Below are positions 1 through 31,661 of a stretch of 37,868 bases of DNA, in pieces; position 1 is the first letter of the stretch; each line of letters starts with the position of its first letter. This stretch comes from a virus. Location of the stretch: IMG/VR virus record IMGVR_UViG_3300010354_000229, positions 1-37,868 of that record; one strand, given 5' to 3'. The notes under the pieces were generated by a model. That model had not been told where the DNA came from. It was given only the letters and a program-made list of their open reading frames with translations, and did no database searches. The position numbers and the translations under genes are program-made.

Positions 1-876
1 ATTATAGAACATCATATAAGGACTGTCTGTTGTTTTTGGATATTGCTGAACTGGTCTTTCCTTATCAAAGAATTCAGGGTATCCATAAAACTCAGCAATT
101 GCCTTTGCTTTTTCTGTTTCAATTATGGTTGCAGTCACACTTTGAGTTCGATCTTTGGTTATTTGGTCATTTTCAACTATAGTATCATTACGAATAAGTG
201 AACCAAAATTCTCTCTACTTGCATTATAACCATATCTACTATTTGATGATTCCGTGTATATGTCTAAGTGTCGTTTGATTGCATCACTTTGTGCAGTTCT
301 GTTGTTGTAGTTATTCGACGCAACACCAGCAACCAAACTGCCAACTTGATTGTTGTGTATTTGATTTATTTCAGGATGATCGTTTTCAAATTTAAACAAA
401 TCTGGATTTTGTTGCATTATCTCAATTTGTCTATCATTTAAATTTGGAAATTGTTTTCTTATGTCTTCACTTGAGGATGCTGAATTAACTGTAGGTGATG
501 CTATTGGTGAACTTACAGTTGTTTTTTTGTCATAACCAGAAGAAGTTGGAGCAGCAGAGATAAAATTACTTGAGATATTTCCTTCTTGATAATTTCCTAT
601 GTAATTTTTTTTTACTTCTGTTGGGTTTGATGTTGTATTTAATATTCCTTCAACTGCTCGTTCAACTTCTCGCTGAATGACATTTTGTGTTATATTAACA
701 TTTACATTCAAATTGTTAGATGATTCTGGATTAGCAACATCAGAAGATTCTGTGCTTTTATTTGTGTTTGGCTGTATCATATCTGCTCTATTATTTGTTT
801 CTGGTATGAAACTTAACATAGAATCAGAGAATAAACCTTTAAGTGCTTCTTCTGTTTGTTGTTTTTTGTCTTCCAT
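1..876 (-). CDS. Low-complexity virion protein, N-terminal 292 residues (partial)
   Basis: The reading frame is open from an ATG at 876 to the left edge, so the C-terminus is missing. A ribosome binding site (GAAGG) lies 4-8 bases upstream, and the start sits two bases after the stop of the gp26 frameshift extension. The visible part is rich in Asn, Ser, Gln and Thr and looks largely disordered: a charged N-terminus (MEDKKQQTEE), a Ser/Asn linker near residues 50-70, a possible amphipathic patch near 70-85, and a more structured part after about residue 150 (DIRKQFPNLNDRQIEIMQQN). No signal peptide, membrane segment or enzyme motif is seen. I do not recognise the family. Its place directly after a frameshifted gp26-type assembly factor is where many tail operons keep the tape measure, and where T4 has hub genes 27-29, so a hub or tape-measure role is possible but not shown. 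Confidence 0.8.
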   Translation of the reverse strand, partial: MEDKKQQTEEALKGLFSDSMLSFIPETNNRADMIQPNTNKSTESSDVANPESSNNLNVNVNITQNVIQREVERAVEGILNTTSNPTEVKKNYIGNYQEGNISSNFISAAPTSSGYDKKTTVSSPIASPTVNSASSSEDIRKQFPNLNDRQIEIMQQNPDLFKFENDHPEINQIHNNQVGSLVAGVASNNYNNRTAQSDAIKRHLDIYTESSNSRYGYNASRENFGSLIRNDTIVENDQITKDRTQSVTATIIETEKAKAIAEFYGYPEFFDKERPVQQYPKTTDSPYMMFYN

Positions 877-877
877 T

Positions 878-1093
878 TTACCTTCTCATTCTGCTTTGGC
901 GACTGACTTCTTCTTGATTTCTTTCTAGTTCTTGCTTCTCAATATACTGCCCTAGTCGGTCTACATAAAGATCTCTTTCCCAAGGAATCATTTCGTTTAT
1001 TTCTGTCAAGCTTAGTTTGTGTATATACATCAAACTAAAATTTAACTCATATAACGAAAAGAGATTTATGTAGCTAAGGCTTAGCGAAAAAAA
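878..1093 (-). CDS. C-terminal frameshift extension of gp26 (gp51-like), -1 frame
   Basis: This frame opens immediately after a TGA (1096-1094) exactly at the slippery T TTT TTT heptamer and runs to TAA at 880-878. It has no credible start of its own: the first ATG is 21 codons in and lacks a Shine-Dalgarno sequence. A -1 slip at 1093-1087 would add 69 residues to gp26 residue 237, giving a 306-residue fusion. The extension is clearly coding-like and ends in a charged helix after the motif INEMIPWERDLYVDRL. Tail assembly chaperones of many phages (lambda G/GT, P2 E/E+E') are made this way, P2 using a T7 slippery run. In T4, gene 51 lies next to gene 26 and acts in hub assembly, so this may be the gp51 equivalent. 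The coordinates given are those of the open frame, not of an independent gene. Confidence 0.75.
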   Translation of the reverse strand, partial: FFSLSLSYINLFSLYELNFSLMYIHKLSLTEINEMIPWERDLYVDRLGQYIEKQELERNQEEVSRQSRMRR

Positions 1094-1797
1094 TCACGAA
1101 TCCCCTTGAATGTTATCTTTCGTTGTGTACCATCAGATGTTATATAAGGAACACTGTGTTCTATCTTTGGAATTTTTACAAAAAAGTTCAATATAAGTTG
1201 ATACTGTTGTTTTGTTAGACTGTCTATGAATTCCTTCAAAGTCTGTTTATTTAAATCTGTGATGAGTTCTGTTTTGGTCTGAACAGATTCAATTGAACTT
1301 AACACCATGTCAAATAAATCAATATTGCCGTCATTGTTTTGAACAGCATTCTCAATCAAATATTCAAAGGATGGGTATTTCATATTGACAATCAATTCAT
1401 CTGATATTTTAATATTTTTATTGTTCTCTTCGACTTTAACTTCTATATGTGGAATGAATACATCCACTTTAATTTTTTCTTTTGTTTCTGGACAGACAAA
1501 AGACACATTAATAACTTCCGACACTGATTTTTCTCTTATCTTAAGAAACATATACTCAACATCAAAAATTGGCAGTTTCTTTGAGTTAATTTTAATTGCA
1601 TTATCAGAAAAACAATTATCAATTATATCAGTTATTGTTACTAAAAAATCTGAATAATTTCCTGTGTCCTTTGCTACCAAAAGTGCTTTTTCTTCTTTCA
1701 CTGTAAATGGTCTATATGACAAGTTTTTTCCAGTTGACGGTTGTTTTGCTATGTACTTTGGATAAGAACTTTTCAAAGTCGCTATAATATCATTCAT
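1081..1797 (-). CDS. 26: Baseplate hub assembly protein gp26-like
   Basis: Gene of 238 codons starting at ATG 1797, with a strong ribosome binding site (GAGGT) five to six bases upstream and 11 bases after the stop of the gp54-like gene. The N-terminal pattern YRPFTVKEEKALLVA followed by an Ile-rich segment and a Cys (residues about 55-63) is typical of the T4_baseplate (gp26) family; T4 gp26 is about 208 residues. Family members are needed to assemble the central baseplate hub but are not firmly placed in the finished virion. The gene ends in GIRDFFR, whose last codons form a -1 slippery site leading to a 69-residue extension, so two products are likely, as for tail assembly chaperones. Assignment to the gp26 family is from sequence pattern and synteny. 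Confidence 0.75.
   Translation of the reverse strand: MNDIIATLKSSYPKYIAKQPSTGKNLSYRPFTVKEEKALLVAKDTGNYSDFLVTITDIIDNCFSDNAIKINSKKLPIFDVEYMFLKIREKSVSEVINVSFVCPETKEKIKVDVFIPHIEVKVEENNKNIKISDELIVNMKYPSFEYLIENAVQNNDGNIDLFDMVLSSIESVQTKTELITDLNKQTLKEFIDSLTKQQYQLILNFFVKIPKIEHSVPYITSDGTQRKITFKGIRDFFR
1087..1093 (-). promoter_or_regulatory. Programmed -1 frameshift site, T TTT TTT
   Basis: On the minus strand gp26 ends GAT TTT TTT CGC TAA, so the seven Ts sit in the correct X XXY YYZ phase for a -1 slip. An SD-like AAGGGG (1107-1102) lies eight bases upstream, as in the dnaX type of bacterial frameshift site. GCTAA-GCC-TTAGC (1085-1073) can form a short hairpin two bases downstream and includes the gp26 stop. 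The three elements are seen directly; their use is inferred. Confidence 0.75.
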
Positions 1798-1808
1798 ACT
1801 TTACCTCA

Positions 1809-2540
1809 TTAATAAGTTATCAAATTTGCAAATTTAAAGAATACTTTAAAGGGAGAATACCCAGTCTCTACTGATGTTAAATTCACTTGTGCTATTTGCG
1901 AAACATAAGCTTCCTCAAACATAATGGTTGATCTTGCTACAGGAGTATCATATTGTTCATTTAGTAGTTGTATGGTGAGTGTATCGTAATAGATTTCATC
2001 CATATAATTTGTTGCACCACCACTACCTTTTACAAATCCTTCAACATTGTTTGTGACTGGATCTGTAACGGATGTTAAAAATTCCGTGATTACACCGCCA
2101 GCAGCGACAAATGGATCGCCTGCAGCACTCGTAGGTGGTCCAACTTGCTCTACAGCTGAAGGAGAAACGCCATTTTGAGCAGCAAACTCCGTTAAATCTT
2201 GACCTTGACCTTGTTGACTACTACTAGTATTGTTTCCTCCTCGTACTGATGTAATCAATCCACTCCACCAACTTATCATGTTTTTATAATTTGAGTTGCC
2301 AACTATAAATGTGACTTCTACATCAGTAAATGTTTTTCTGAATGGAATTTTTCTTTGAATGCTCCAAATTGAATGGTCTATAAAATCATAACCTAAACCT
2401 GGTAATGTTATATTATATGGATATAGCAAATCACCTGAGATTGGTGGATAAAGCATAGCGTACCTGTTGGTTTGTTGAATACCTTGACCTAGAATGTTTG
2501 CTCTTGCTTGTGTAATTGATCCTGGGATCGGAAGTTTCAT
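1809..2540 (-). CDS. 54: Tail-tube-fold baseplate protein, gp54-like
   Basis: 243 residues. The N-terminal half has the tube-protein pattern: a start like TNRYAMLYPP, then a hydrophobic LPGLGYDF strand, RKIPFRKTFTDVEVTFI (about 64-80) and a Trp-containing segment ISWWSGLI. The C-terminus (AQVNLTSVETGYSPFKVFFKFAN) is the closing strand seen in T4 gp19, gp48 and gp54. Residues about 95-155 are a Ser/Gln/Gly-rich loop (QGQGQDL). The true tube gene gp19 starts at 37792, so this second tube-like protein, next to gp4 and close to gp48 and gp53, best fits the tube initiator gp54 (320 residues in T4). Its ATG overlaps the TGA of gp4 (ATGA), indicating translational coupling. A tube paralogue with another position in the baseplate is the alternative. 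Confidence 0.55.
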   Translation of the reverse strand: MKLPIPGSITQARANILGQGIQQTNRYAMLYPPISGDLLYPYNITLPGLGYDFIDHSIWSIQRKIPFRKTFTDVEVTFIVGNSNYKNMISWWSGLITSVRGGNNTSSSQQGQGQDLTEFAAQNGVSPSAVEQVGPPTSAAGDPFVAAGGVITEFLTSVTDPVTNNVEGFVKGSGGATNYMDEIYYDTLTIQLLNEQYDTPVARSTIMFEEAYVSQIAQVNLTSVETGYSPFKVFFKFANLITY

Positions 2541-2968
2541 TTAAATAGTTCCTTTTCTGTTAGTATCACAAATTCCCAATTATTATCTTCACACAATTTT
2601 TTTGCCGCTTTCCACTTAGCAGTATTTATAGAATAAGTTAGGGTTTCTTGCAACATTCCTCTTTTTGACTTTTTTTGTTTTGGTGGTTGTGTTTGTTTAT
2701 ATGGTTTTATTTCCACTACTATGGTTTTTACCTTTCCATCTTTTCCTTTTTTCTCTACTATAAAATCTGGGTGGTAGATGTGTACATCATTATCTTTGGG
2801 GGACAGGTATGGTATTTTTAAAGTTTCAAACGACCAACGTAAAACATTTATGTTTTCATCTAAATACTTACAAAATTTTCTCTCCCATAGAGATCTACAA
2901 ACTATTTTTGTAGAATCGCCTATATATTTAATAGGATTTTTAGGTAAAAATTTAGTTTTGTAGGGCAT
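2537..2968 (-). CDS. 4: Head completion protein gp4 (PD-(D/E)XK nuclease-like)
   Basis: 143 residues, close to the usual T4 gp4/50/65 length. The family is required to finish packaged heads so that tails can join, and it carries a TnsA-like restriction-endonuclease fold. Visible motifs: NPIKYIGDS (11-19), RSLWERKFCKYLD (25-37) with Glu29, YHPDF (65-69) with Asp68, and VVEIKP (84-89) with Glu86-x-Lys88; together they make a complete PD-(D/E)XK set. The C-terminus has the conserved N-x-AKWKAAKKLCEDN helix and the ILTEKEL end. In T4 gene 4 is also next to gene 53. The ATG at 2968 has no Shine-Dalgarno; a TATAAATA box lies only six bases upstream, suggesting a nearly leaderless late transcript. 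Confidence 0.9.
   Translation of the reverse strand: MPYKTKFLPKNPIKYIGDSTKIVCRSLWERKFCKYLDENINVLRWSFETLKIPYLSPKDNDVHIYHPDFIVEKKGKDGKVKTIVVEIKPYKQTQPPKQKKSKRGMLQETLTYSINTAKWKAAKKLCEDNNWEFVILTEKELFK
2623..2630 (-). promoter_or_regulatory. Possible internal late promoter TATAAATA inside gp4
   Basis: A second perfect TATAAATA on the minus strand lies inside gp4, about 83 bases before the ATG of the gp54-like gene. It could give a separate late transcript for gp54-gp26. In AT-rich coding DNA such an octamer can occur by chance, so this is tentative. Confidence 0.25.
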
Positions 2969-2974
2969 ACAAAA

Positions 2975-2982
2975 TATTTATA
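2975..2982 (-). promoter_or_regulatory. T4-type late promoter box TATAAATA before gp4
   Basis: A perfect TATAAATA, the T4 late -10 consensus read by the gp55-type sigma, lies on the minus strand in the 27-base gap between gp4 and gp48. The expected start would fall at or within a base or two of the gp4 ATG. The same gap holds AAGGA (2983-2986 region), the ribosome binding site of gp48 on the plus strand. Confidence 0.55.
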
Positions 2983-2995
2983 AGGAAAACACCAT

Positions 2996-3934
2996 ATGGG
3001 TTTTTTTGAAACAGGAGTACCAAATTTTACTGGTCTTTTAGAAGGAACTGACACTTTGATCTTTCCTGCTGAAAGCAGCATTCAAAAAGAAATACCTCTT
3101 TATTTAAGATTAGTATGCACTGAATATTCTATGAATGGAATAGCAAGATCTGGAATAAAATCAATAGGTGCTCAAAAGGCAAATATTTATGTTCCTGTTC
3201 CATCCAAACTTGTAACTCAAACAGCAATGAGATATAAACAAGAGGCAAATGAAGAATATATGAATCTTGCTCAACAAAAAGAATTTGAAAAGAATTTTCC
3301 AGTAAAGGTTGAAGGATTCATGACAGGATTAATGAATCCCCTAACAAGAGTTCTTCCTCCACAAGTTGCAGGAGCTGCAGGAGATTTAGGTAGAAATTTG
3401 GCAAGATCATTCAGTTCAATGATTGATACAGATTTTACTGAAACTATACTTCAATCTGGTTCAAAACGAAGTTTTACTATTTCTTTATACATGCCATGTT
3501 TAAATCAAGCTGACTCTTTAGCAGCTGCTAAAATTACAAGAGCATTTGAAGCTCTTGCATTACCATCAATGATTGGAGCTGGAGTTTCTGCTGTTGGTGG
3601 TGTTCAAATGCATTTTCACCCCCCGATGTGGTTTTTTGGAATAGGATCATTAAAATCAGTCAGATCTGATATTGATTGGACAAGTCAACCGCAAGCGTCA
3701 GTTTTAACAAATGTCGCTGTTTCAAGAACAGCGATTGATGCTTCTTCATTTACTGCTCTTGACGGAAATATTAAACCAGCAGCATACAGCGTCACTTTAA
3801 ATTTTCAAGAAATTGAGACTGCGTTTAGAATTCCAACTCCAGGACAAGCAACCTCATTTGGTATTAAAAATAGATCTGGTGCTGTATCTACTAGTGCAGG
3901 AGCAGCATTAGGACTTATAAGCGCACTTGGGTAA
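2996..3934 (+). CDS. 48: Baseplate tail-tube cap gp48-like
   Basis: 312 residues (T4 gp48 is 364). gp48 sits on the hub and, with gp54, starts tube polymerisation. Recognisable features: a start with FPAESSIQKEIPLYLRLVC (about 22-41); a Lys/Glu-rich helix near 80-100; a Gly/Ala-rich middle (AGAAGDLGRNLARSF); and the C-terminal tube-like part with WFFGIGSLKSVRSD, VLTNVAVSRTAID and YSVTLNFQEIETAFRIP, the family's closing strands. Start ATG 2996 has AAGGA seven to eight bases upstream. It is the first plus-strand gene and diverges from gp4; gp53 follows 13 bases later, as in related aquatic phages. Confidence 0.75.
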   Translation: MGFFETGVPNFTGLLEGTDTLIFPAESSIQKEIPLYLRLVCTEYSMNGIARSGIKSIGAQKANIYVPVPSKLVTQTAMRYKQEANEEYMNLAQQKEFEKNFPVKVEGFMTGLMNPLTRVLPPQVAGAAGDLGRNLARSFSSMIDTDFTETILQSGSKRSFTISLYMPCLNQADSLAAAKITRAFEALALPSMIGAGVSAVGGVQMHFHPPMWFFGIGSLKSVRSDIDWTSQPQASVLTNVAVSRTAIDASSFTALDGNIKPAAYSVTLNFQEIETAFRIPTPGQATSFGIKNRSGAVSTSAGAALGLISALG

Positions 3935-3947
3935 GAAAAGGAAATAA

Positions 3948-4895
3948 ATGTATTTTAATAAATTTTCAACTATAGAATATACAATAGGAAGTAGAAATTA
4001 TCAATTATTGGATATTTTTACAAAAGTTTCTATTCTTGGAGATTACACAACATCAAATGCCTTTGACCAATATGTTATACAAGAAGGAGAAACACCAGAT
4101 GATGTTGCTACTTTAGTTTACGGGGATCCAAATCTAAGTTGGTTGATTTTGCTTACAAATAACATTTACAGTGAGGACGAATGGTACTCTGGTGATTCTG
4201 CCTTTGCGACTTTATTGGATAAAAAATATGGTGGTGAAGCATATTATATAACAAATCTTCCAGATCTAAAAGAAGGCGATGTCATGGTTAAAGTCCTAAC
4301 AACCAGTGGACAGACTGTTTCATCTATCGATGAAACAAAGTATAGAATTATATCTGGATTTGATAAAACTTTTAGATCAGTTTGGGGCAAAGGTGGTGCT
4401 GGTACTTTTTCAGCGGGAGATACCGTCATGTTTGGTAGAAGAAATACCCAAACTGGTGCAGTAGATATACTTAATTTTGTAAGCAGTTCAGATATAACTT
4501 TGAATACTCAACATACAACTGTTAATTTTATAGAAGAAAAGAAAAACAGTCCATACTATTTATTGCAATATACAAATGATGTTGTGGTTCCTCCAAATGT
4601 GGTGTTTTCTGGTGGTGAGATACAAAGCACATATGTTCCATCTAATACAATTTTTACAGATCCATTGTCAACTGAAACAAATTTTGCAAATACTTTATTA
4701 TATTATTATATGACCAATTCGGGTGTTGTTCCTGGAATACAAAAATTTAGTTACTACACCAAAGAATTGAATAAATATCGGGAGAGGCAAATAATTTCAG
4801 TAATTAAGAGATATCTACTTCCTGATATTGTCTCTACAATACAAAATCTAGTCAAAACTAAGGAAATAGGAAGAAGGGTTGCTCTTGGATTATAA
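3948..4895 (+). CDS. 53: Baseplate wedge protein gp53
   Basis: 315 residues. gp53 is the wedge subunit that clamps neighbouring wedges together around the hub. The N-terminal half carries the family signature: FNKFSTIEYTI, then the LysM-like segment YVIQEGETPDDVATLVYGD followed by PNLSWLILLTNNI (about 42-73) and the acidic DEWY motif. T4 gp53 is only 196 residues; here an extra beta-rich region of about 100 residues (about 95-200) precedes a C-terminal helical part (LNKYRERQIISVIKRYLLPDI). The ribosome binding site AAAGGAAA is well placed before ATG 3948, and the stop is two bases before the giant hub gene. Confidence 0.85.
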   Translation: MYFNKFSTIEYTIGSRNYQLLDIFTKVSILGDYTTSNAFDQYVIQEGETPDDVATLVYGDPNLSWLILLTNNIYSEDEWYSGDSAFATLLDKKYGGEAYYITNLPDLKEGDVMVKVLTTSGQTVSSIDETKYRIISGFDKTFRSVWGKGGAGTFSAGDTVMFGRRNTQTGAVDILNFVSSSDITLNTQHTTVNFIEEKKNSPYYLLQYTNDVVVPPNVVFSGGEIQSTYVPSNTIFTDPLSTETNFANTLLYYYMTNSGVVPGIQKFSYYTKELNKYRERQIISVIKRYLLPDIVSTIQNLVKTKEIGRRVALGL

Positions 4896-4897
4896 TC

Positions 4898-7800
4898 ATG
4901 GATACTCAATTATTTAATAAAATTGCAAATAAATCTGTAGGTGACGCAAGTAAAAATATCTACAAGAGCATACTTGAAAGTAAAATACAGTTATTGTCTA
5001 TTGAAAAAGTAGACAAAGATGGAAATATAATTAAATTTGATCTAGTTCCATGGACTAAGCAAACTCAATTTAAACAAGGTAATCCTTTCATTCGAATGCA
5101 ATATGTGGAGTCTATTGAATCTACATTTATGTACGGATCGCTGTACCTTTATGATTATTTAAATTGGGGTGATGAATTTGTTTTGAATGGAACTGAAAAA
5201 ATTATTCTTGGATGTACTGAAAGTATTACATCTGGTGATTTTGCCGAAAACACAACTAAAGATACACCACAAGTTTGCGTATTGAATGAATTTAAAGTCT
5301 TCAGTGTTAAAAAAATAACAGACGATTCCAAAATTGACATTTACATGAATAAGGCAGAACCTTCTTCTATTTGGAAGATAGATTTTACCAGCGAAGATCT
5401 AATATTTAAAAACTACAACGAATCATTTTTAGAAGAGTTTCAAGACTTTGTTGGTTATATTGCTGTTGATTCAAATGAACAAACAGATGAAAATTCTCCA
5501 AAAGGTCTAGTTAACGAAATATTTACAAAATTTGATATATTAGGTGATATTGAAGCAACAAAAAATGGTGTTTGGTTAAAATACAATAGTTTATCATGGC
5601 CCTGGATGAAACAAAGAGGGCAGATGAGGGTTCTGCAATTATTAAACCATCTTACAAATTATGCACAATCAAAAGAAAATCCAAATGCCGTAAATTATTT
5701 CTTCTGGAGAGATCGATATGGTTGGAATTTTAAGAGTATTGATAAATTACTCAGAGATCAACCAAAAGCAGTTGACGGATTCTTAGTTACTTTTAAAAAT
5801 GACAATCCAAATAGAATATACAATATTGAACTTACAAAAGAATTTAGTATACCCCAACTATATGAAACTGGTGTTATTCACACAAATTACTACAGAACAG
5901 ATCCAAATTACAATGATCCGTATTTAGACTTTATCGATACAAATTATGGGTTTACATTTTCAACAATAATCTATGACTACAATAAAGATTATGATTCTTG
6001 GTTACATATCAATCCACAAAAATTGCTTAATGAAACTTTTGAGACTGGTGTAACTAATGATATAGGATTAGTCAAACCTTCCACCAAAACAGATGACATG
6101 ATTTATGGTTACATGAGTAAACAAGTGCAAAACACTCCGTTTCCTCAGTGGTGGGATCATTTAGGTAAAACTTATTCTGGTCCTTGGAGTGATATAGCAT
6201 GGCAACCACAATTTGATTTGACTGAGTTGCATATTAAAGAATTCTATACTATTCAAAAGAAAATTCGTGAACCTCTTAAGAAAAAGAGAGATGAATATAA
6301 TCGCAAGAAAAACATCAAACGAAGGTGGGAAACATATCGATGCACAGTTTGTTGTCATCAAGACGGTGCATTAGGTTCCACAGCAGACATTCAATTGTTT
6401 AATAATCCAGGACCAGTAGATGGAGCAACTTATGCTATGTTGTTTGGTCCGACTGGAATGTTTGCTGAATTTAATCAACAATACAAAATTGTTTCTGTTG
6501 GATCTTTTACGGATCAACTAAATTATGATTCTGGGTTGACCATGCTGAATGGTCTTACACAATCTTATGATTTAACAAAACCACCATACAATCAATCAAT
6601 AGGTGATTTTTTTAATCTTTCAGACGATCCAACAAATTATGTAAACGGTGTAATCAATAGAGCAATAAATCAATACCAGATATTAATTGATCGCTTAGAC
6701 GAAAGAACTGCTGATTTAAATAGTTTTCTTGGTAATGTGAAATCATACAAGCAGACTGCTGATAATATTTTCTTTTCTTCGTTAGTTCCAAAAAACTCAG
6801 ATTATAAACGACCAATTGATCTTATCCAAGGTTACAAATACGTCGGAGATGCAATACCAGGCGAAACAATACTTGAATGGCCTATTACAGAATATGAATA
6901 TGGAATGGTTCCATCTACAGCAATACCAAAAGATTTTGGTGTTGGTGTTCCTGTTTTCAGAGATTCATCTCAGCAACAACAAAACAATTCTCCTAGATCA
7001 ATAACTTTTAGAGCTGGTTCAAATACATGTGGTTGGTGCGTTTCTTGTGATTGTTTTAGAGATCCAATCGGTTCTTTTAGCGGAAGCGGAGAATGTACTG
7101 CACAGTGTACTGCTTCTGGTGGCGAATTTGTAACTTCATGTAATTCTGGAGAATTTTTTGTTTCTGCCCCATGCGATTCCACTGGAAATTCTATACTTGA
7201 AGCAGCAACAAATCAACAACTTGCTGCTCAACAATTAATTTGTTCTTCAAATCCAGGATGTCAAGCTGGACCACCAACTAAAGTTGCATGTTTACCTGGT
7301 CCTGGTGGTATAAATTATTGCACAAATGTGTTTGCAACTGATCCAAATGCTCAATGGGATACATTTGCTGAGTGCTATGCATCTGGTTGTAATGAAATGG
7401 GTGAACAATATATTCTTTGTTGTAGACAAGACAACGCTTGTGGATTGTCAACTTTAGACCAGTGTTTGAATGGTGTTAATGGTCGAGTAGTTTCATCATG
7501 TTCTGAATGCACTGGAGATCCTGATGGTGGCGGCAACGGTCCTGTGGGACCACCTGGACCTCCAGGCCCTCCAGGTCCACCTGGTCCCCCAGGACCAACT
7601 GGTCCAACAGGACCAACAGGGCCTACTGGTCCATCTGGATTGCCAACAGAAGAGGATATCGTAGAATTGGATGTTCCTGTTGAATGTTCAAAGGATAAGG
7701 TTGTAAGAGGATACATCCGTCACATTAGTGATGCTGCTGTTTCTGCATATTCTCCAATATATGTTTATGCTGCTCCATATCTCTGGGCAGCACAGGATGC

Positions 7801-10492
7801 TGTACCTCAAGATTGGTCTTTTTATGATTACGGAACAGATCCAAATTTAATTCCTGGAATAGTTGATAATTCAATAAGAACTACAACTCAAAACTGTATT
7901 AATTCTGGTAAATGCTATAACACTACATGTCTAAGTTCAACTGCACTAGAAGCATTAGCAAGAACATGTATTGCTGAATTACAGTTAATTGCAATTGAAA
8001 AAGAGTTACTTATTTCTCTAAGAAATACCGTAACTGATCAATATAGATTATTATGGCAGCAATTATATCAAGAATGGTATAACCGAAAAGCATTTTTCCA
8101 TTCCAAGAAACCAGGTGAAAGTGTATTCAATAATCCAAATACAGAGACTGGTTTAGTTTCTAAAAATTTCTTCAGTCTAGAAAATGTAAAAAAGATTACG
8201 CGAAAAGAAATTAGAGGAAGTAGATATGAAATATTATCCAAGTCCAAAGGAATAACTGGAGCATCCGCTGGTGAATGGTTATATAAAATATTTTTTGGAA
8301 ATAATGAAGGATCAACTGCACATCCATATTATGACCAAAAGTATACACAAACACCATTCATAACATCAAGAGAACCATATTCGTGGTATAGCGTTGAAGA
8401 TGTAGATTCCACTGATAATCCACAATATGATTTTGATGGAGAAAGAAGAAATTATTCTTCTACTGATATTTTACCAAAACAAGAATATGCTCCAGAGTTT
8501 AGAGGATCCGAACATGTAGAAGTTGGCGTAATGCATATACCTTCTACTGATATGGGAAATATTAACAATGTTTTATTAAACTTCAATGGCGGAATCGCCA
8601 ATGCTGTTTCACAATTTGCACAGGGAGATGTTACACCATCAAATGCTTTATCATTGAAGAACACATTTAATCTTTACGATATCAAACCAGAAAGCAAACC
8701 ACCAAATATAAAGAAAGAAGAAATAACATCATACTTCAGAATTGAATTTAACAACCCAATCGGTCTGGACAGAATTAAAGAATTCCCTGATGGATTTGTC
8801 AGAGATGCAGGAATTGAGTATTTCTTACCTTATATTGTACAATTAACACCAGGTCCATTTGGAAAACAATCAGTAAAATATAATGCAGCAGTCATAGGAA
8901 TGGATCCATATGGATTCGATGTTGCTGTTAAGAAAATTAAAGATGATATTCCTGCAAATAGAAAACTTGCTGGATTTGATCGCGGAAATTATTATTCTTG
9001 GTGGAATCATGACACTGGTTCTTTATTGTCCAAGACTCAATACTTAAGCACAGATTACAATGGAATGGATTTGTGGCCTGAACCTATATTTGAAACAGAA
9101 TACACTTATTATGCGTTCGACCACACACAAGAAGATATGCACGGTGGAAATTTAGACATGGATTTCCACAATGGTGGAGGATTTAATTTTGAAAACTCTT
9201 CTCAAGATTGGATGGAATCTTTATATGATTATGGAATGAGTTCTGGTAAGCAGTTTGATCCTCTCAGAAGAACTTCTTCTATGGGATCATATCTCCTGCC
9301 TAATAGTTACAGGAAAATGAAACCACATCGTTCTTGGTGGTCTATTTTTATTCCTAGAAATTTATTCATACCCGTAAGATTCTCCAATATGTTTAAGTCA
9401 CTAAGAAAGAAAGCAAGAGATTTGTTTGGTGGTAAAGGAATATTTACTGCTAATCCACAATATTGGAAAAATTGGTATGGAACAGAATTCCAAGACTGGA
9501 TTGCATTGGCAGATAAAAACAATCCAGATTTATCTGGTTTGTTAACCAATACCAGTCTTTCTATCTTTTTACAGGATACCGATGCTGGCACTTGTGTAAA
9601 TCCAGTAAAAACTGGAACTCTGCCAGCAGGAATCAAAAAATATTTTAACGATTCTTTAATGCATTATTTAAATGGATCTGCTCTTCTTTATAGACCATCT
9701 ATAGTTGCAGAAGATCTATGGAAGTATGACCTCAGCGGAGAGACTGACTATGGACTAATAACACCACCAGTTGACGCTGAATATGATTTCTTTGATCGTA
9801 ACTTCTCTATGCAATTTGTTGTTTTTGCCAGAGGAAGTAGATCATGCGAAGAACTTGGTCTAAAATGTGCTAACCCAAACACACCACCTTTAATAAGTTC
9901 AGAAGGTTGTGAACCAAACGATCCTTATTGTAACTGCCCAGCACAAGATAAGATGCCTACTGATTCCGAACCAACATATCTTGAACTATATAAACTATAT
10001 CAAGAATTGTCAGAATGTAAACTCATTGAAGAATATCTTGGAGAAGACTGGTTGGGATGTGAATGGTCGAACCCAGATTCCCCATGCAGTTGCAACTGCC
10101 CAGAACAAGGAAAAAATTTCAATAAGTATCTTGAATATAACAGGACTTATGCAACTTTCTGGGAAACTGACCATAAGACACCTTTATTGAGAATAGCACA
10201 AATCGGATTGCTATCTGCACAACAAATGACAATTGTTATTGGTCCAAATGACAAAGTTAAAGTTGGATCAATTATTGAAATTTTTGTACCAAACAGCGAA
10301 TTGGTTATTAAGAATAAATTTAAGAGATTTTCTGGGAAATGGTTAGTATCTTCAATCAGTCACGATTTCTCTACTTTGAGAAACTATTCTCTAACTTTAA
10401 GTTTAATTCGAGATTCTATTGATTATGACATAAACGAAAGTGAAGAACCAGTATCGATCTTCACTGTAAATTCATACGATAAAGCAAACTAA
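4898..10492 (+). CDS. Giant hub-like baseplate protein with cysteine-rich and collagen-like insertion
   Basis: 1864 residues, the largest gene here. The N-terminal about 400 residues look like a gp27-type hub barrel, including FFWRDRYGWNFKSIDKLL (about 268-285). The last about 100 residues (1762-1864) match the end of such hubs: GSIIEIFVPN, then a GKWLVSSISHDFS strand and LTLSLIRDS. Between them lie some 1350 inserted residues: a basic helix with a Cys pair (about 470-490), a cysteine-rich block (about 711-873, starting CGWCVSCDC), twelve collagen-like Gly-Pro-X triplets (881-916), long Tyr/Asp-rich regions, and two small Cys clusters near 1670-1745 (PYCNCP, CSCNCP). Its place between gp53 and gp25 matches hub/gp5 positions in related phages. 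No lysozyme motif was recognised. The hub role is inference from both termini and position. Confidence 0.6.
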   Translation: MDTQLFNKIANKSVGDASKNIYKSILESKIQLLSIEKVDKDGNIIKFDLVPWTKQTQFKQGNPFIRMQYVESIESTFMYGSLYLYDYLNWGDEFVLNGTEKIILGCTESITSGDFAENTTKDTPQVCVLNEFKVFSVKKITDDSKIDIYMNKAEPSSIWKIDFTSEDLIFKNYNESFLEEFQDFVGYIAVDSNEQTDENSPKGLVNEIFTKFDILGDIEATKNGVWLKYNSLSWPWMKQRGQMRVLQLLNHLTNYAQSKENPNAVNYFFWRDRYGWNFKSIDKLLRDQPKAVDGFLVTFKNDNPNRIYNIELTKEFSIPQLYETGVIHTNYYRTDPNYNDPYLDFIDTNYGFTFSTIIYDYNKDYDSWLHINPQKLLNETFETGVTNDIGLVKPSTKTDDMIYGYMSKQVQNTPFPQWWDHLGKTYSGPWSDIAWQPQFDLTELHIKEFYTIQKKIREPLKKKRDEYNRKKNIKRRWETYRCTVCCHQDGALGSTADIQLFNNPGPVDGATYAMLFGPTGMFAEFNQQYKIVSVGSFTDQLNYDSGLTMLNGLTQSYDLTKPPYNQSIGDFFNLSDDPTNYVNGVINRAINQYQILIDRLDERTADLNSFLGNVKSYKQTADNIFFSSLVPKNSDYKRPIDLIQGYKYVGDAIPGETILEWPITEYEYGMVPSTAIPKDFGVGVPVFRDSSQQQQNNSPRSITFRAGSNTCGWCVSCDCFRDPIGSFSGSGECTAQCTASGGEFVTSCNSGEFFVSAPCDSTGNSILEAATNQQLAAQQLICSSNPGCQAGPPTKVACLPGPGGINYCTNVFATDPNAQWDTFAECYASGCNEMGEQYILCCRQDNACGLSTLDQCLNGVNGRVVSSCSECTGDPDGGGNGPVGPPGPPGPPGPPGPPGPTGPTGPTGPTGPSGLPTEEDIVELDVPVECSKDKVVRGYIRHISDAAVSAYSPIYVYAAPYLWAAQDAVPQDWSFYDYGTDPNLIPGIVDNSIRTTTQNCINSGKCYNTTCLSSTALEALARTCIAELQLIAIEKELLISLRNTVTDQYRLLWQQLYQEWYNRKAFFHSKKPGESVFNNPNTETGLVSKNFFSLENVKKITRKEIRGSRYEILSKSKGITGASAGEWLYKIFFGNNEGSTAHPYYDQKYTQTPFITSREPYSWYSVEDVDSTDNPQYDFDGERRNYSSTDILPKQEYAPEFRGSEHVEVGVMHIPSTDMGNINNVLLNFNGGIANAVSQFAQGDVTPSNALSLKNTFNLYDIKPESKPPNIKKEEITSYFRIEFNNPIGLDRIKEFPDGFVRDAGIEYFLPYIVQLTPGPFGKQSVKYNAAVIGMDPYGFDVAVKKIKDDIPANRKLAGFDRGNYYSWWNHDTGSLLSKTQYLSTDYNGMDLWPEPIFETEYTYYAFDHTQEDMHGGNLDMDFHNGGGFNFENSSQDWMESLYDYGMSSGKQFDPLRRTSSMGSYLLPNSYRKMKPHRSWWSIFIPRNLFIPVRFSNMFKSLRKKARDLFGGKGIFTANPQYWKNWYGTEFQDWIALADKNNPDLSGLLTNTSLSIFLQDTDAGTCVNPVKTGTLPAGIKKYFNDSLMHYLNGSALLYRPSIVAEDLWKYDLSGETDYGLITPPVDAEYDFFDRNFSMQFVVFARGSRSCEELGLKCANPNTPPLISSEGCEPNDPYCNCPAQDKMPTDSEPTYLELYKLYQELSECKLIEEYLGEDWLGCEWSNPDSPCSCNCPEQGKNFNKYLEYNRTYATFWETDHKTPLLRIAQIGLLSAQQMTIVIGPNDKVKVGSIIEIFVPNSELVIKNKFKRFSGKWLVSSISHDFSTLRNYSLTLSLIRDSIDYDINESEEPVSIFTVNSYDKAN
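7538..7645 (+). repeat. Collagen-like Gly-Pro-X repeat DNA in the giant hub gene
   Basis: Twelve consecutive GGN-CCN-NNN nonamers: one GPV, five GPP, four GPT, GPS and GLP. The pattern also reads Gly-Pro-rich in antisense, creating a spurious minus-strand frame. Confidence 0.9.
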
Positions 10493-10500
10493 ATACTAAT

Positions 10501-10896
10501 ATGCTAAAATATAATTTTACATACAACGACATTCCTTTTATAATGACCAAAAATCCATTTACTGGGGATCTCAATTTAGTAAAGGATGTTAATGCTATTA
10601 AGCAGTCAGTTAAAAACATAATAATGACTATTCGAAAAGAAAAACCATTCAATATACTTTTTGGTGGTAATCCAAGAAACAGTCTGTTTGAAAATTTAAC
10701 AACAATGACTGAAATTGAATGTAAAAATCTACTTGCGAATGCAATTGACACATTTGAACCAAGAGTTGATTTAAAAGATATTGGCATAGAACAAAGCAAA
10801 GTAAATCCAAATAGAATAAATATATTGATTGTCTACACAATTGTTGATATAGGAATAGTTGACAGCATTACAGTATCATTAGAAAGGACAAGATAG
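10501..10896 (+). CDS. 25: Baseplate wedge protein gp25 (gpW/gp25 family)
   Basis: 131 residues, the usual size (T4 gp25 is 132). gp25 forms part of the inner wedge core with gp6 and gp7 and primes sheath assembly. The family marks are visible: an N-terminal strand with DIPFIMTKNPFTGDL, a run predicted to be helical (AIKQSVKNIIMTIRKEKPF), FGGNPRNSLFE and the near-invariant Glu-Pro-Arg at residues 86-88 (TFEPRVDL). The stop TAG shares its G with the GTG start of gp6, so the two wedge partners are translationally coupled. The gene starts eight bases after the giant hub gene. Confidence 0.93.
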   Translation: MLKYNFTYNDIPFIMTKNPFTGDLNLVKDVNAIKQSVKNIIMTIRKEKPFNILFGGNPRNSLFENLTTMTEIECKNLLANAIDTFEPRVDLKDIGIEQSKVNPNRINILIVYTIVDIGIVDSITVSLERTR

Positions 10897-12611
10897 TGGC
10901 ATCTCGTAAACCACCAACAACTCTGGGAAAATTAGAATTCCTTGATATAAAGCAAAGTTTTATAGACTATTTAAGAACTCAAAAAGAGTTTAGTGGTTAT
11001 GAATTTGAGGGATCTGCGCTCTCAACACTTATTGATGTCTTGTCATACAACACATACTACTATGCTTTATATTCTAATTTAATAACTAGTGAAGCATTTT
11101 TAGATTCAGCTCAACGAATTGAATCCTTAATATCTTTAACAAAACCTCTAGGATATACGATTCCATCTAAAACAGCAGCAAAAGCAAAAGTTGCTTTATC
11201 TGGGATAGATCCTACTACAACAATTATTCGTAAAAAATCAATATTTTATGGCAAAAATTCAGATGGCACTCAGTTTAGATTTTATAATCTAGAAGATGTC
11301 CCTGTTGCAGATTCACAGACAGATTATTTTTTGATATATGAAGGTAAAAACTTTGTTGAAGTTGAAGCAGTTGATTTGATTGATATAGAAAGACAAAGAG
11401 TAGTTATTGCTGATGATGATTTTGATTTAGAAACATTAAAAGTCACAGTAACTGATCCAGAGACAGGCGTAGATCAAGAATGGACAAGAATTAAAAGTGT
11501 TGGGTATTCCAACACTGTAGAAGAAAAAGTTTACTTTGTTGAAAGAGTCGAAACTGGATTTATAATTTCTTTCGGTCTTCTTAACTCAGTTGGAAAAAAC
11601 ATAACAGAAGATGTGCAATCTATAAAAATTTCTTACATAACCACAAATGGATCATTAGGAAATAACATAGGAATATTTACTTCGCTGTTAGGCACTGTTA
11701 CTACATTTGATGGTATTCCTAGTTCTAGTGGAAAAGACAATCCATCGCTTGATTCAATTAAATTTTTAGCACCAAAATGGTTTGCTTCACAGGAACGAGC
11801 AGTTACTACTAATGATTATAAAGCGTTAGTTGTCGATGCTGGGTTTTTTGGAAATCAATCAGAATTTAACATATATGGTGGAGAAGAAATAGTACCAAGA
11901 AGATATGGTAGAGTATTCATAACTTCCCAAAAACAACTAGCAGAAGTAACAGACATGATGAATTTCTTAAAAGAAAGAAGTGTTGTTACTGTACTACCCG
12001 AATATGTAAGTTCTGTTCCTATTTCTGTTTTTGTTGATTTTACTTTTAGATTTAATGACAGGGTTGCACGATCAGCAACACAGAAACAACAAATTGCTGA
12101 TCGAATAAAATCAATATTTAATGAAAGTTTTGCATCAAATAGAACTTATAATTTATATTTTAGCGCAAGTGATTTTATAGATGCTGTAAAACTTGTATTA
12201 CCACAAGTGGAAATGTCTCCAGATGATTTTGAATTATATGCTGAACAAGAAGTGAATGCAACTTTGACTGATTATGTGTTTAATTTACAAAATGCAATTG
12301 CATTAGGCGACGCAGCATCTTTAATATTTACAGATCCTTTTGATTCTAATCAAAGTCAACAACAAGTTGTTTATCTTGTCAAGAACGATACTATTTTTGC
12401 TGAAAAACCATTGCAGTTATGGACTTCTGATCTTGTAACACGAGTAAGCGAAAGTGTGGGTAGTGTTGATGTGGCCACAGGCACTATAACAATAAAATCT
12501 GGTGTTATGAAACAACCTGTCATATTTACAATACCATTTAAGCAAAAATCAATTAAAATTGGATTGAATAATCTTAGCACGTTCTCAATTAAAAACATAA
12601 CGATAGCATAA
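10896..12611 (+). CDS. 6: Baseplate wedge protein gp6 (baseplate J-like)
   Basis: 571 residues, starting at a GTG that overlaps the gp25 stop by one base; AAAGGAC gives a ribosome binding site. gp6 forms the dimeric inner ring that holds the baseplate together and is conserved in all contractile systems as the J-like protein. Signature regions: LEFLDIKQSFIDYLRTQKEF and YEFEGSALSTLIDVLSYNTYY (about 16-60), LGYTIPSKTAAKAKV (about 85-100), a central beta domain, and FLAPKWFASQERAVTTNDYKALV (about 290-312), the typical J motif. Length is close to the T4 protein (660) and to aquatic relatives. The next gene begins one base after its stop. Confidence 0.92.
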   Translation: MASRKPPTTLGKLEFLDIKQSFIDYLRTQKEFSGYEFEGSALSTLIDVLSYNTYYYALYSNLITSEAFLDSAQRIESLISLTKPLGYTIPSKTAAKAKVALSGIDPTTTIIRKKSIFYGKNSDGTQFRFYNLEDVPVADSQTDYFLIYEGKNFVEVEAVDLIDIERQRVVIADDDFDLETLKVTVTDPETGVDQEWTRIKSVGYSNTVEEKVYFVERVETGFIISFGLLNSVGKNITEDVQSIKISYITTNGSLGNNIGIFTSLLGTVTTFDGIPSSSGKDNPSLDSIKFLAPKWFASQERAVTTNDYKALVVDAGFFGNQSEFNIYGGEEIVPRRYGRVFITSQKQLAEVTDMMNFLKERSVVTVLPEYVSSVPISVFVDFTFRFNDRVARSATQKQQIADRIKSIFNESFASNRTYNLYFSASDFIDAVKLVLPQVEMSPDDFELYAEQEVNATLTDYVFNLQNAIALGDAASLIFTDPFDSNQSQQQVVYLVKNDTIFAEKPLQLWTSDLVTRVSESVGSVDVATGTITIKSGVMKQPVIFTIPFKQKSIKIGLNNLSTFSIKNITIA

Positions 12612-13766: not shown

Positions 13767-15506
13767 ATGAGCACTAAAACAGAAAATGTTAAAACTTTTA
13801 TCAATCAAACTGGAAAAGAAAATCAGTTATTTTTATTTGTGGGATCTAATAATACAAATTCGACAACAAATGCACCAATAACCGAGTTAGAAACTTGGAA
13901 ATATTCTGATTTTTCAATAAAGATAGGTAAAGACAATTTAGTACCTGTAGTCAAAAATGTAAAATGGGTTCAAAAAAGAACCTACACCCCATGGAGCGCA
14001 AATGTTGAAAACTATGGTAATTTTTACGCATATAATGAATCAAATGGATATGTTTATCTTTGTTTATCAGACAACAGAGAAAATAGAACAGATTTTATAG
14101 GCAAAAATGTCTCAAATAACATACCATCGCATGTTTCTGGTGATGTTACTTATCAGGATGGGTTTACTTGGAAAGCACTTTATAAAATAACACCAACAAT
14201 AGAAAGATTTGTAACAGAACAATGGATTCCTGTTGTAAGTTTTGATGTATTTGATGATTTAGACAAGTCAACCCCATTTGCTCAACTGCAATCGTTTTGT
14301 TCACCATCAGCAACTAAAACTGCTGGAACTTGTGCAATTTATTTTAAACAAAATATAAAATATTTATCACATACTGGTTCCTTTGTTGATGGGATCAAAG
14401 GAAATCTCTACGAAACATTTAGTATGGAATGTTTTGATTGCTATAACACATTTAAAGATCATCCTAACTTTGTTGTTGATTTTACAACAACAACGCCAAG
14501 TTCTACAATTGAAATCAAAGATACTTATGACATAGTAGGAGAACTGATTGATCAAAAGAAAATATCAACAGCATCTCCTTATTATTATCTTTATCAAGTG
14601 AACACAAATTCACCAGATGAAGGATATGTAGTTTCTGCCTTTATTAATTTAAACGGAATCGACCAAGATGATCTTGCAATCACAAAAGCAAACCCAGAAT
14701 TAACAGTATACAGTAATAGCGGTTCTGGAGCATCAATTCGTCTAAAAACTTTTACATCAGCAATAAACAATAAAATATATGTTTATGGCATTGAAGTTGT
14801 GTCTAGGGGGTCTGGGTATAAAGATATAACTGTAGAATTAGATTCTGCAAGTTTACTTGGTTCGTTAACTTCAACACAGTTAATGGCGTTAATTGATATA
14901 AATCTTGACGAAGTTGATGGTCTTGGGTTTGATCCGATGAAGGTGTTAAATTGTAAACACACAATGGTTGATGTTAGAGTTGATAAACCAACATTAAATT
15001 CTTCAAATTTATCAATTCCAAATCATATTAATTTTTACAGTTTAGTACAGAACCCAAAAAATGATACTTCATTTGACACAATTGCTGGTGCTACTGAGAA
15101 CAAATATCTTTCTACATTGTACCGCACAACAGTTAAATTGTCTGTAACTCCACCATCTGGTGTTGGAGGCAATCCTATACTTCCAACAGTTGATGAAAAT
15201 GGAGTTATGACTTTAACAAATGGAACTGTGCTCAAAAATATTAATATATCATCTATAATTCCTCCACAAACTGTTGGTGGCAGCGCAAAATTTGAAATAA
15301 AAAATGTTGAATATACACAAGCATCAACTCTAGTGGGTGCTAATTTTGTTGTTGATGGTGTTAACTATACTGTAAACGGAATTGACTCACAACCATCGTT
15401 AGTTCAGTATTCTGGTAAGGTGCTGTCAGCAAATAAAACAAATGATATTACTATACAAGATGTAGATACTGCATTGATTCGTATAAATATGGTTAAAGGA
15501 ATGTAA
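13767..15506 (+). CDS. 8: Baseplate wedge protein gp8
   Basis: 579 residues from ATG 13767, chosen because it has an AGAGAG ribosome binding site after the upstream stop; an alternative TTG start at 13737 would overlap the previous gene and lacks such a site. gp8 is a dimeric wedge protein contacting gp6, gp7 and gp10 in T4 (334 residues). Diagnostic segments: VQKRTYTPWSANVENYG, GYVYLCLSDNR, and DGFTWKALYKITPTIERFV followed by EQWIPV (about 125-160). The protein is longer than in T4; the extra part (from about residue 330) is beta-rich and Gly/Ser/Thr-rich. The next gene starts two bases later. Confidence 0.85.
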   Translation: MSTKTENVKTFINQTGKENQLFLFVGSNNTNSTTNAPITELETWKYSDFSIKIGKDNLVPVVKNVKWVQKRTYTPWSANVENYGNFYAYNESNGYVYLCLSDNRENRTDFIGKNVSNNIPSHVSGDVTYQDGFTWKALYKITPTIERFVTEQWIPVVSFDVFDDLDKSTPFAQLQSFCSPSATKTAGTCAIYFKQNIKYLSHTGSFVDGIKGNLYETFSMECFDCYNTFKDHPNFVVDFTTTTPSSTIEIKDTYDIVGELIDQKKISTASPYYYLYQVNTNSPDEGYVVSAFINLNGIDQDDLAITKANPELTVYSNSGSGASIRLKTFTSAINNKIYVYGIEVVSRGSGYKDITVELDSASLLGSLTSTQLMALIDINLDEVDGLGFDPMKVLNCKHTMVDVRVDKPTLNSSNLSIPNHINFYSLVQNPKNDTSFDTIAGATENKYLSTLYRTTVKLSVTPPSGVGGNPILPTVDENGVMTLTNGTVLKNINISSIIPPQTVGGSAKFEIKNVEYTQASTLVGANFVVDGVNYTVNGIDSQPSLVQYSGKVLSANKTNDITIQDVDTALIRINMVKGM

Positions 15507-19969: not shown

Positions 19970-22900
19970 ATGATATACGGAAGTAGTCCACTTTTAGGTG
20001 TTAACACTGTTGGTATAACTGGCCCTACTGGACCAATAGGTCCAACAGGACCAGTTGGAAAAAGAGGTCCAACTGGTCCTGGTGCTACTGGATCTACAGG
20101 ACCGTCTATAACTGGAATGACACTAAACAGTCAGGGAAGAATAGCAAATCGATTTAGTGATAATATAATTTTTACTTCTGTTTCTGGAATAAAAGGCGAA
20201 ACTGGAAATTATTACATACCAGCAGATGCTGAACCACTTTCGACTCAGTTTAACATTGTTCACGGAGTATCATATTTTGAAGACGACGGCAATGGTGGTT
20301 TTCAAAACATAATCAGATTACGCGGATTTACTACGGCATCACCAGATGTTATTAGATTTAGTTTAAATGCACAAAATAATATTAATATTGATTATAGTAT
20401 TTTTAACTTAGCATATCTGGGAATATCAGGTGGTAGTTCTCCTCAATTAGCATATAATAAACCAGGCGACAAGCAATATGGTTTGACTGGAACAAACTAC
20501 GACACATCTATAAATTCAGTAAGCGCACAGATTGCAAATTATTCTGAAAAAATTGTTGTGGTAAATCCAACATATAAACCGTTTTCAACTGGTGGTGCTG
20601 TTGGGTTCTATTATTGGAATATAGATTGGGAACTTGGAAATATATTCAAGTTAAATTCATGGGCAAACGATCCAGGTGCTGCTGCATTAGATATTACAGC
20701 ACAACTGCTGAATATTCGTTCTCCTTCAAATGAATCTGTATCAAAAGGGTTGACTATAATTATTCCAAGTGGCATAACATCATCAAATAATTTTACTACA
20801 CTGTATGCTACAACTGATGATTTATCAATAGAACCAGATATAAATAATTTTGAAGAGGGTGTGTCGTGGCCTATAACTATACCACCATGCTTTACTGAAC
20901 ACATCGATGTGCTTAATCTAATTTCTGCTGGAGATGTATGGTATGCTTCATTTAGTCACTTAGGATACACATCTGGAGTTGCTGGTGATGTAGTTGGTGA
21001 TGTAAACAAAACGCCAACACTGATAAACATTGAAAATGTTAATTTTGATTGCGCAAGAGGAAATGCAATTACAGGTGTTTGCTGTCCAAGACAATGTGGT
21101 GTTACGGGATATGAAACCATAGAAGTTTTATGTGATGGTATTTTTTATATTGGTGTAACACTGGGTGGAACTTGTGATAACATTTGCAATCAACTTGGAG
21201 TTTGTTGTTTACAATTATCAGATCCGACAAATCCAATCTATAAAGCACCTGGATTTATTGCTCAATGTGAATGTGCAACGCTGGCAACAAACCAAGGTGC
21301 TCTTGATTACATATGGACACTAAAAGATGACAGCATATATTCAGTTGCAGATGTTAATTGCGAAAATGCATTTAACGATCTAGGATCTTGCTGTGACGGT
21401 CGTGGAAATTGCATACCAGATATATCAAGAGCAGATTGCATTTCGAGATCAGGATATTACCAAGGTGCTGGACTTGGTTGTGTTTCATCGAATAGTGTAA
21501 GACGATGTGTTGATGGAAATGGAGCGTGCTGCACACCATCACAAGAATTGTGTATAAATGGTTATACTGGATCAGAATGTATAGCAAACAATAATTTTTA
21601 CTTTGGGTATGGAACAAACTGTGTAGACTTTGATTGTACTAAATCTTGTTATCAAACACAAAGTGGTTTAGTTTTAACTCCTGGTTCTGAGTTTGCAGAT
21701 GGTATTGTGGTTGGTATATTTAATCCAAAGAATTCTATGTGCTATGGCAACACTGCATTCGGTGGAATTCCAACCTCACTACTTTCTGCTGGAAATTTAA
21801 CAACATCTACTGAAGTGTTTAATTTTTTAACTAATGGCGACGAAAGACAAGCAGAATTTTATAGCACAAAATACAATCAGAGTGGTTATGGATTTAATAG
21901 AACTTCCAATCACGCATGTGACAATGATTCTTGGATATTAATTGTTTCAAAGTATCCAGTGCTACTCAATGAAGATAGAACAAATATATTAACAACAGAA
22001 ATAACCGCAACATCATTAACAAACTTTACATGGAGTCATGGTGGTACTTATTTTGGTAACATAATGACAGACACAGGAGAAATTCCACAAAATAATGAAT
22101 CTGTACCACCATCTGATGGTGCATTTCCAGGTGACGCTACTCCAGATGAAGGATGGTATACCAGAAAATATTATGAATCTGAATTTATAAATGTTGGAGC
22201 AGATGGTCCTCTATATGGACCAATTCCCGCATTCCCAGCATCGTATTTTAAAAATATAGCAATTCCTGATGGGTTTGAACCTGGGGTATTAGGTATAAGT
22301 TATGACATGTTAACTGTCAAAGACAGACTTCAAGTTATATACCCAGCACCAATTGATCCAAATGCTGCATCTCCTAATATTATTTTTGATACAACCACAT
22401 ATGTCTCTGGCACTGGTCAATTCACATACAATCAATTAGACACAAATAAAACATCAGCAGATTGTGCAGCTTTGGGTTATGATTGCGATTGGAAACAAAT
22501 CAAAATTATATTATACAGAGATCCAGCAGATCAAAGCACAGTAACGTCAAATGCTCTAGTTTATTTTAGAGCAAACAAAACTAAATTTGATTATTATGGA
22601 AATGTATATTCATTCAACAATTGCTCAAATCAGTTTAATATTAATCCTGTTTGGAGAAGTGGGCATGGTCCATTTAGAGCAAGAACAACTTTAAATGGAA
22701 AGTGGAATTCAAACTGGGGTCTATACAACACAATAAGAATGATTTGTGCTGAGAGACATGCATATAATTTAGATTCTGGGTTTGATCCAATTTATTCTCA
22801 ATTCTATACATTTGGTGCAGGGTTTACGACAAATTACACAGCATGGAATTCTAGTCAACAAAGTTCCAGCGAGGCAATATCTGCATTTAATCAAATAAAA

Positions 22901-26463: not shown

Positions 26464-26464
26464 T

Positions 26465-31628: not shown

Positions 31629-31661
31629 AAAATCTCCTTATAAATAATATAAGGAGATTTT
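31629..31661 (+). terminator. 14-bp perfect hairpin between the adhesin block and gp13
   Basis: AAAATCTCCTTATA (31629-31642), loop AATAA, and TATAAGGAGATTTT (31648-31661) form a perfect 14-bp stem followed by T. It can act as a Rho-independent terminator for the adhesin operon, but its 3' arm is also the gp13 Shine-Dalgarno (AAGGAG, 31651-31656), so read-through RNA would hide that site. Confidence 0.65.
31639..31646 (+). promoter_or_regulatory. T4-type late promoter TATAAATA before gp13
   Basis: A perfect T4 late promoter octamer spans the hairpin's 5' arm end and loop. The expected start is about six bases downstream, near 31652, so the late transcript would begin at the AGGAG of gp13 and lack the 5' arm of the hairpin. 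This would drive gp13-gp17 late. Confidence 0.75.

Follow-up and report, generated by a model that had tools for sequence, protein, structure and literature searches.

A gp27-type baseplate hub interrupted by a large conserved insert in T4-like phages from metagenomes

The unbroken open reading frame at positions 4898-10492 (plus strand) of a 37,868-base virus contig (IMG/VR record IMGVR_UViG_3300010354_000229), the whole of which is referred to here as the window, translates into 1864 amino acids, and sequence, synteny and a partial fold match identify its product as the hub, of the gp27 type, in a T4-like contractile tail. The two parts of this hub are held apart by an insert ~three times as large as the hub. 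The best explanation, which we hold at somewhat better than an even chance, is a platform mounted on the hub from which a collagen stalk extends, with a variable tip that contacts the host.

The hub and its place in the baseplate operon

In the window, this reading frame takes the position of the hub in a baseplate operon of T4-like order (gp54-gp53-HUB-gp25-gp6), and the genes flanking it are:

2996..3934, plus strand, gp54-like tail tube cap (phrog_230, E 3e-5)
3948..4895, plus strand, gp53-like baseplate wedge (phrog_232, E 2.5e-20; PF11246)
10501..10896, plus strand, gp25-like baseplate wedge (phrog_261, E 1e-33; PF04965)
10896..12611, plus strand, gp6-like baseplate wedge (phrog_219, E 3e-79)

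Before gp54 come a T4 baseplate protein (PF12322) and a further minus-strand gene where the Pelagibacter phage HTVC008M has its tube gene, and gp6 is followed by a short gp7-like protein and collagen-bearing fibres, with gp13, gp14, gp15 and the terminase small subunit 3' of these. HTVC008M encodes a 445-aa 'tail protein' after gp54 and gp53, which gives a full-length match to phrog_350. Across the family, gp53 lies immediately 5' of the hub at all 121 loci having >1 kb upstream and gp25 immediately 3' at 154 of the 159 having >450 bases downstream, these totals being loci rather than contigs, such that the loci of one contig may recur.

Other features of these contigs were also recorded. A TnsA-like endonuclease gene (PF08722, E 1e-19; 2537-2968, minus strand) adjoins gp54 and is similarly placed in contigs G001, G008 and G007. 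The motif TATAAATA, which we take to be the T4 late promoter octamer, is found at 15482-15489, 31639-31646 and 2975-2982, being 19, 18 and 6 bases 5' of gene starts, respectively, and its total of five copies in the window is not above chance. On G001, a gene of ~400 aa (60703-61950) lies between terminase-like and portal-side genes, where T4 has its 659-aa tail sheath; if it encodes a sheath, this would be a short one.

Both ends of the protein had been predicted to be a gp27-type hub separated by about 1350 residues, and this was borne out. The T4-like 'tail protein' family phrog_350 matches three colinear pieces (residues 50-117, 242-387 and 1765-1845), and with hhalign residues 24-370 align to residues 3-288 of the HTVC008M hub (E 3e-15) and residues ~1740-1845 to its residues ~306-431 (E 7e-11), which leaves a gap of ~1,370 aa compared with about 20 aa in HTVC008M. 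Direct hhalign comparison of the two ends with T4 gp27, represented by four gp27 sequences, was weak (probability 5% and 2%), and the link to T4 gp27 runs through the HTVC008M hub family, which matches it at E 1e-6 in a profile comparison, and through the fold. Taken over its full length, an AlphaFold2 (AF2) model of residues 1-712 is of poor quality (mean pLDDT 51.5), although its hub portion is fair to good, and for residues 25-320, the part without the C-terminal barrel to which the fold match is confined, T4 gp27 ranks first (VIA Z 14.3, rmsd 3.3, 217 aligned). The four best Foldseek matches of the hub model are likewise T4 or Klebsiella phage KP1 tail chains (E 5e-7 to 6e-6), two of them from gp27-gp5 crystal entries. 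Furthermore, a hub profile search found no separate intact hub, which would have counted against the prediction, with one convincing hub locus each in the window, the related 118 kb contig G001 and the related 142 kb contig G007, the last consisting of two neighbouring genes. The gp27/phrog_350 hubs examined, which include HTVC008M (YP_007517895) and Synechococcus phages, have the same N- and C-terminal parts and gene position, but are 367 to 487 aa in length and have no insert.

A conserved platform and a variable cassette

IMG/VR scans with pieces of the protein yielded 3, 4, 34, 94 (80 kept) and 69 loci, with contigs recurring among these sets, and a domain map of all loci showed that 61 distinct IMG/VR proteins from many metagenomes have both halves of the insert. 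Scans of genome contigs found no relative and so gave no clue to the host. Using tblastn against cultured phages, no match was obtained for the whole window hub, L198 or the N-terminal gene of L166, and matches to the query L165 were confined to the N-terminal hub region of Synechococcus phage S-8S56 and two sisters. The hub of S-8S56, at 425 aa, has no insert and is followed by CP12 and gp5, and no cultured phage carrying the insert was found in these searches. A search of the available literature likewise found no published work on the inserted hub. The window hub protein can be divided into the following parts:

4898..6010, plus strand, gp27-like N-terminal hub part, residues 1-371 (phrog_350, hhalign and fold match)
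6203..6967, plus strand, insert domain A, residues 436-690 (family conservation and low dN/dS against L006)
7031..7537, plus strand, hypervariable Cys-rich block, residues 712-880, with 19 Cys (high dN/dS)
7418..7510, plus strand, CC-type disulfide-like module, residues 841-871 (recurs in fibre genes of the contig)
7538..7645, plus strand, collagen-like tract, residues 881-916, trimerising by analogy
7658..9967, plus strand, orphan platform module C, residues 921-1690 (conservation; no Pfam or PDB relative)
9845..10099, plus strand, re-entry Cys cluster: C1650, C1657, C1671, C1678, C1680, C1707, C1721, C1732 and C1734
10115..10447, plus strand, C-terminal hub part, residues 1740-1850 (phrog_350 positions 349-432; hhalign E 7e-11)

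Domain A, which starts with an exit helix and a CxxCC motif (C482-x2-C485-C486), and module C show the highest conservation within the protein, with module C exceeding the hub flanks in conservation among 20 full-length proteins. Comparison with the relative L006 gave dN/dS values of 0.07 for domain A, 0.10 for module C, 0.07 for the collagen-like tract, 0.16 for both the N- and C-terminal hub parts and 0.63 for the Cys-rich block, all of which are rough as synonymous sites are near saturation. These figures, rough as they are, argue for strong purifying selection acting on the insert platform, which also holds many invariant polar residues. Beyond the collagen-like tract the platform is nearly constant in length, whereas the lengths of the tract and the Cys-rich block vary. 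Searches with the platform gave no relative in Pfam, PHROG or the PDB. Among 25 members, six Pfam families were matched, each in a single member and none recurrently (best E 0.05), profile matches to the PDB look like chance (best E 0.08 and 0.02), profile A6 matched no PDB chain, and phmmer against the PDB returned only collagen and collagen-like chance matches. AF2 modelling of the post-collagen module (residues 913-1864, 25 sequences) gave a mean pLDDT of 35, and the domain A model was also weak.

The original prediction had described Cys-rich blocks and twelve Gly-Pro-X triplets. The former hold up, refined into two kinds of Cys, one being the hypervariable block (residues 712-880) and the other a strictly conserved set at 482-486, 930, 1011 and 1650-1734, while the latter are indeed collagen-like sequence but number 11. 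Fourteen Cys are kept at 97% or more among 51 fused proteins, a count that leaves out the four most divergent fused forms (L161, L165, L167 and L168). In 20 forms sampled across the tree, five of them with split hubs, C1707, C1721, C1732 and C1734 are kept without exception, the exit CC pair is visible in all and C1680 is present in 19. Since the exit pair and the four re-entry Cys are kept even with the two halves as separate genes, they probably lock exit and re-entry together, clasping the base of the insert through disulfides or a metal site. The latter is made plausible by lambda gpL, in which conserved Cys in the hub insertion region bind a [4Fe-4S] cluster, as described in the available part of PMC10721106.

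Within the variable part, 20 Cys fall in one 169-residue stretch (maximum of 14 in 2,000 shuffles), and the Pro-rich Gly-X-Y run comprises 13 triplets from residue 877, with Gly at every third residue (maximum of 5 in 5,000 residue shuffles). The tract is short and scores 17.6 bits against the Pfam Collagen family (PF01391), below the cut-off of 27.2. A collagen-like tract is present in 28 of the 61 distinct proteins (27 by script, and L031, whose tract has few prolines, by eye), and here the interval between the insert halves carries 12-30 Cys, compared with 0-10 in the 33 without a tract. Among the 20 full-length homologues the tract ranges from about 5 to 23 triplets in length, with the final triplets (GPTGPTGPS type) nearly constant. 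Tract length and the length of the variable block 5' of it are uncorrelated (Spearman -0.02; 18 rows, three of which, L044, L045 and L055, are mis-anchored as 1 triplet), and a simple out-and-back stalk is therefore not demanded; the fast evolution of the Cys block could also reflect weak constraint. In a 56-row tree, the rows with a tract group in a single 21-row clade (19 tract-bearing and 2 of unknown state; support 100/98), such that one gain explains the cassette of Cys block and collagen-like tract.

Three fibre genes on the contig also carry the CC-type module of this block. The fibre-like genes at 19970-23395, 23398-26463, 26444-29470 and 29477-31027 contain 33, 41, 80 and 23 Cys, respectively, and the first three have both a collagen-like run and CC-type modules. 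As the Cys module is common to the insert and the fibre proteins of the contig, the sequence comparison suggests that the insert is most likely a host-contacting device at the tail tip.

Hubs split within the insert

In five relatives (L023, L166, L162, L215 and L219) the hub is encoded by two genes, with the cut lying within the insert. In L023 (1079 and 291 aa) and L166 (917 and 221 aa) this is near the start of the conserved Cys cluster, and in L162 (713 and 267 aa) it is at the same place but with a 750-aa Cys-rich gene between the halves. In L215 (1305 and 358 aa) and L219 (1383 and 368 aa) the cut corresponds to a weakly conserved stretch of module C near window residues 1540-1580, with a 610-aa gene between the halves of L215, and 908-aa and 272-aa genes between those of L219. 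Cys-rich genes separate the halves in three of the five split relatives, and the matching arrangements of L215 and L219 come from different metagenome records. By eye, modules resembling the CC type are present in the separate gene of L215, and the extra 272-aa gene of L219 (11453-12271) ends in a fibre-like CC-type Cys module. At both of these loci, TATAAATA precedes two start codons by 4 bases, that of the first gene between the halves and that of the hub C-terminal gene; these copies are the only plus-strand matches there, and their total number is not above chance.

The tree requires at least two changes between fused and split hubs. Three split forms have long branches and adjoin the midpoint root (fork support 92/79), a placement compatible with either a split or a fused ancestor. 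No intron match was found with Rfam in the five split loci. A further locus, L049, appears as an L052-type hub broken into overlapping frames (2-3433 and 3195-5294) and was not counted as split, as this is probably a frameshift or an assembly error.

Possible roles of the insert

The alignment shows that the chain exits the hub after the second hub domain through the Cys-bearing helix, builds the large conserved platform, and returns through a segment with four Cys to complete the last hub barrel, with the exit Cys pair and the four re-entry Cys probably fastening the two crossings to one another. In the clade of the window, as the tree and sequences show, a cassette consisting of the hypervariable Cys-rich block and then the collagen-like tract was added once between the platform halves. 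T4 gp27 is a trimer, and by analogy the inserted hub would be one also, a threefold arrangement that a collagen stalk fits. The constant length of the platform beyond the tract, set against the variable tract and Cys block, indicates that the stalk most likely grows from the platform, which would remain at the hub while the trimeric stalk carried the Cys block away from it, and by analogy with collagen and gp27 biology this block most likely sits at the far end. A variable module resembling those of fibres, in such a position, would suggest contact with the host.

A real possibility, if on balance an unlikely one, is that the insert replaces the gp5/PAAR central spike, with platform and stalk forming a membrane-contacting axial tip in phages without gp5. 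Six T4-like records have gp5 directly, or within a few small genes, 3' of the hub (HTVC008M, S-H9-1, ACG-2014h, S-WAM2, phiN3 and S-8S56), whereas this position is taken by gp25 at nearly all loci of the present family. Profile searches of 18 family records point the same way: phrog_430 (gp5) was detected in 0/8 and 0/10 records (controls 2/2 and 3/3), PAAR in 0/8 and 0/10 (T4-like controls 3/3 each) and phrog_694 in 0/8 (controls 3/3), and custom gp5/OB profiles, of which that for gp5 is small and built from few records, gave no convincing match in the contigs of 118, 142 and 108 kb. On the 142 kb contig, one gp5 match (E 0.004) turned out to represent a fibre gene that is collagen-like. However, the 18 records are fragments, the largest being these three contigs, and none is known to be complete. 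In addition, PF04717 was detected in 0/7 family records, but two controls (T4 and HTVC008M) also stayed below its cut-off, and the hubs of Cygsa01, D504 and LIMEstone1 are likewise followed by an annotated gene other than gp5. On G001, a pair of minus-strand genes without an assigned function, which lie close to the baseplate cluster (20930-22012 and 21973-23232, tile L065) and are conserved in G008 and G007, could be an unrecognised tail protein or a cryptic spike. Pelagimyophage gp5 can also be very divergent, according to the available part of PMC7029224. We therefore treat loss of gp5 in this family as a lead resting on 18 incomplete records; because neither gp5 nor PAAR was detected in them, the expectation that a needle normally covers the hub may not apply here.

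Alternatively, the insert could be a peripheral structural enlargement bracing the hub to the wedges, with its tip pointing sideways or upward and an ordinary, diverged axial spike in place. The insertion site maps, through the HTVC008M alignment, near T4 gp27 residues ~281-300, in an outer domain of gp27, and the greater conservation of the insert relative to the hub would be expected for a part with many contacts. However, this would leave unexplained both the collagen tract with its hypervariable block and the failed gp5 and PAAR searches, and we regard it as possible but doubtful.

A more encompassing proposal, which we hold only tentatively and think rather unlikely as a whole, is that of a T4-like clade lacking the gp5 needle and PAAR tip, in which a giant insert borne by the hub is the tail tip, held by a cysteine or metal clasp across both hub halves even where these are two polypeptides, and with one lineage having gained a trimeric collagen stalk and a variable disulfide-rich binding head.

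The insert might also be an enzyme module, possibly of a new fold. The hub gp15 of the Anabaena myophage A-1(L) shows that a myophage hub can bear large extra domains, in that case lysozyme, endoglucanase and peptidase, although these can be recognised as enzymes, are located elsewhere in the hub and occur alongside a separate gp25 spike, as far as the available part of PMC10966104 describes. The many invariant polar residues of the platform would suit such a role, but with no recurring Pfam family among the 25 members and only chance-like PDB profile matches we consider it improbable, and the envelope-digesting role suggested by the original prediction is left without positive support. Finally, misassembly can yield a huge insert in a single metagenomic reading frame, but an artefact, chimera or spliced element is extremely improbable here, with misassembly, intein and intron disfavoured by the conserved arrangement of 61 distinct proteins from many metagenomes under strong purifying selection, by a whole-protein Pfam scan giving only Collagen at E <= 0.1 and no Hint domain, and by the Rfam result.

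A platform with a stalk and a host-contacting tip, the reading we prefer, can be set beside several known systems. The available part of PMC10721106 describes large hub insertions in T5 pb3, lambda gpL/gpI/gpJ and RcGTA gp13/gp15, and in lambda and RcGTA the hub is split at the insertion into two genes with a gene between them. These insertions lie in hub domain II, earlier than that of the window, no collagen or Cys-rich cassette is mentioned in that part of the source, and the systems are siphophages and a GTA rather than T4-like (PMC10721106). Likewise, the T5 chain 7zqp_b spans 10-717 for model residues 19-327, which puts its insertion before window residue ~327, whereas the window insertion starts after ~371 and the site is therefore different. 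A lambda-type split hub with a gene between its halves is absent in the window but present in L162, L215 and L219, although these splits lie in their own insert and not at the T5 site. A predicted collagen-like stretch is also known in a baseplate-associated protein, FibU of phage 80alpha, but this is a peripheral fibre while the tract of the window is inside the hub (PMC7048315, available part), and the phage Milano tail likewise has many structural disulfides, found in sheath, tube, wedges and receptor-binding proteins, with no inserted hub platform mentioned in the available part of PMC10811340.

Large hub insertions, split hubs and enzyme domains in hubs are thus already known, and the present hub departs from them in where its insertion lies, in its orphan platform and collagen cassette, and in its T4-like setting. 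Together, the insert and its split relatives point to a phage tail tip of an unusual kind. In contractile tails, whether of phages or of injection systems, the hub-spike unit ranks among the most conserved parts. The present hub holds a platform ~three times its own size, tolerates division into two genes at two places within the insert and may do without the standard needle, and so reveals points at which this machine is open to rebuilding. It also identifies natural permissive sites within a gp27-type protein. Furthermore, the series of fused genes, split genes, and split genes with a Cys-rich gene between them is reminiscent of the T5/lambda pair, and it opens the fusion and fission of hubs to direct testing.
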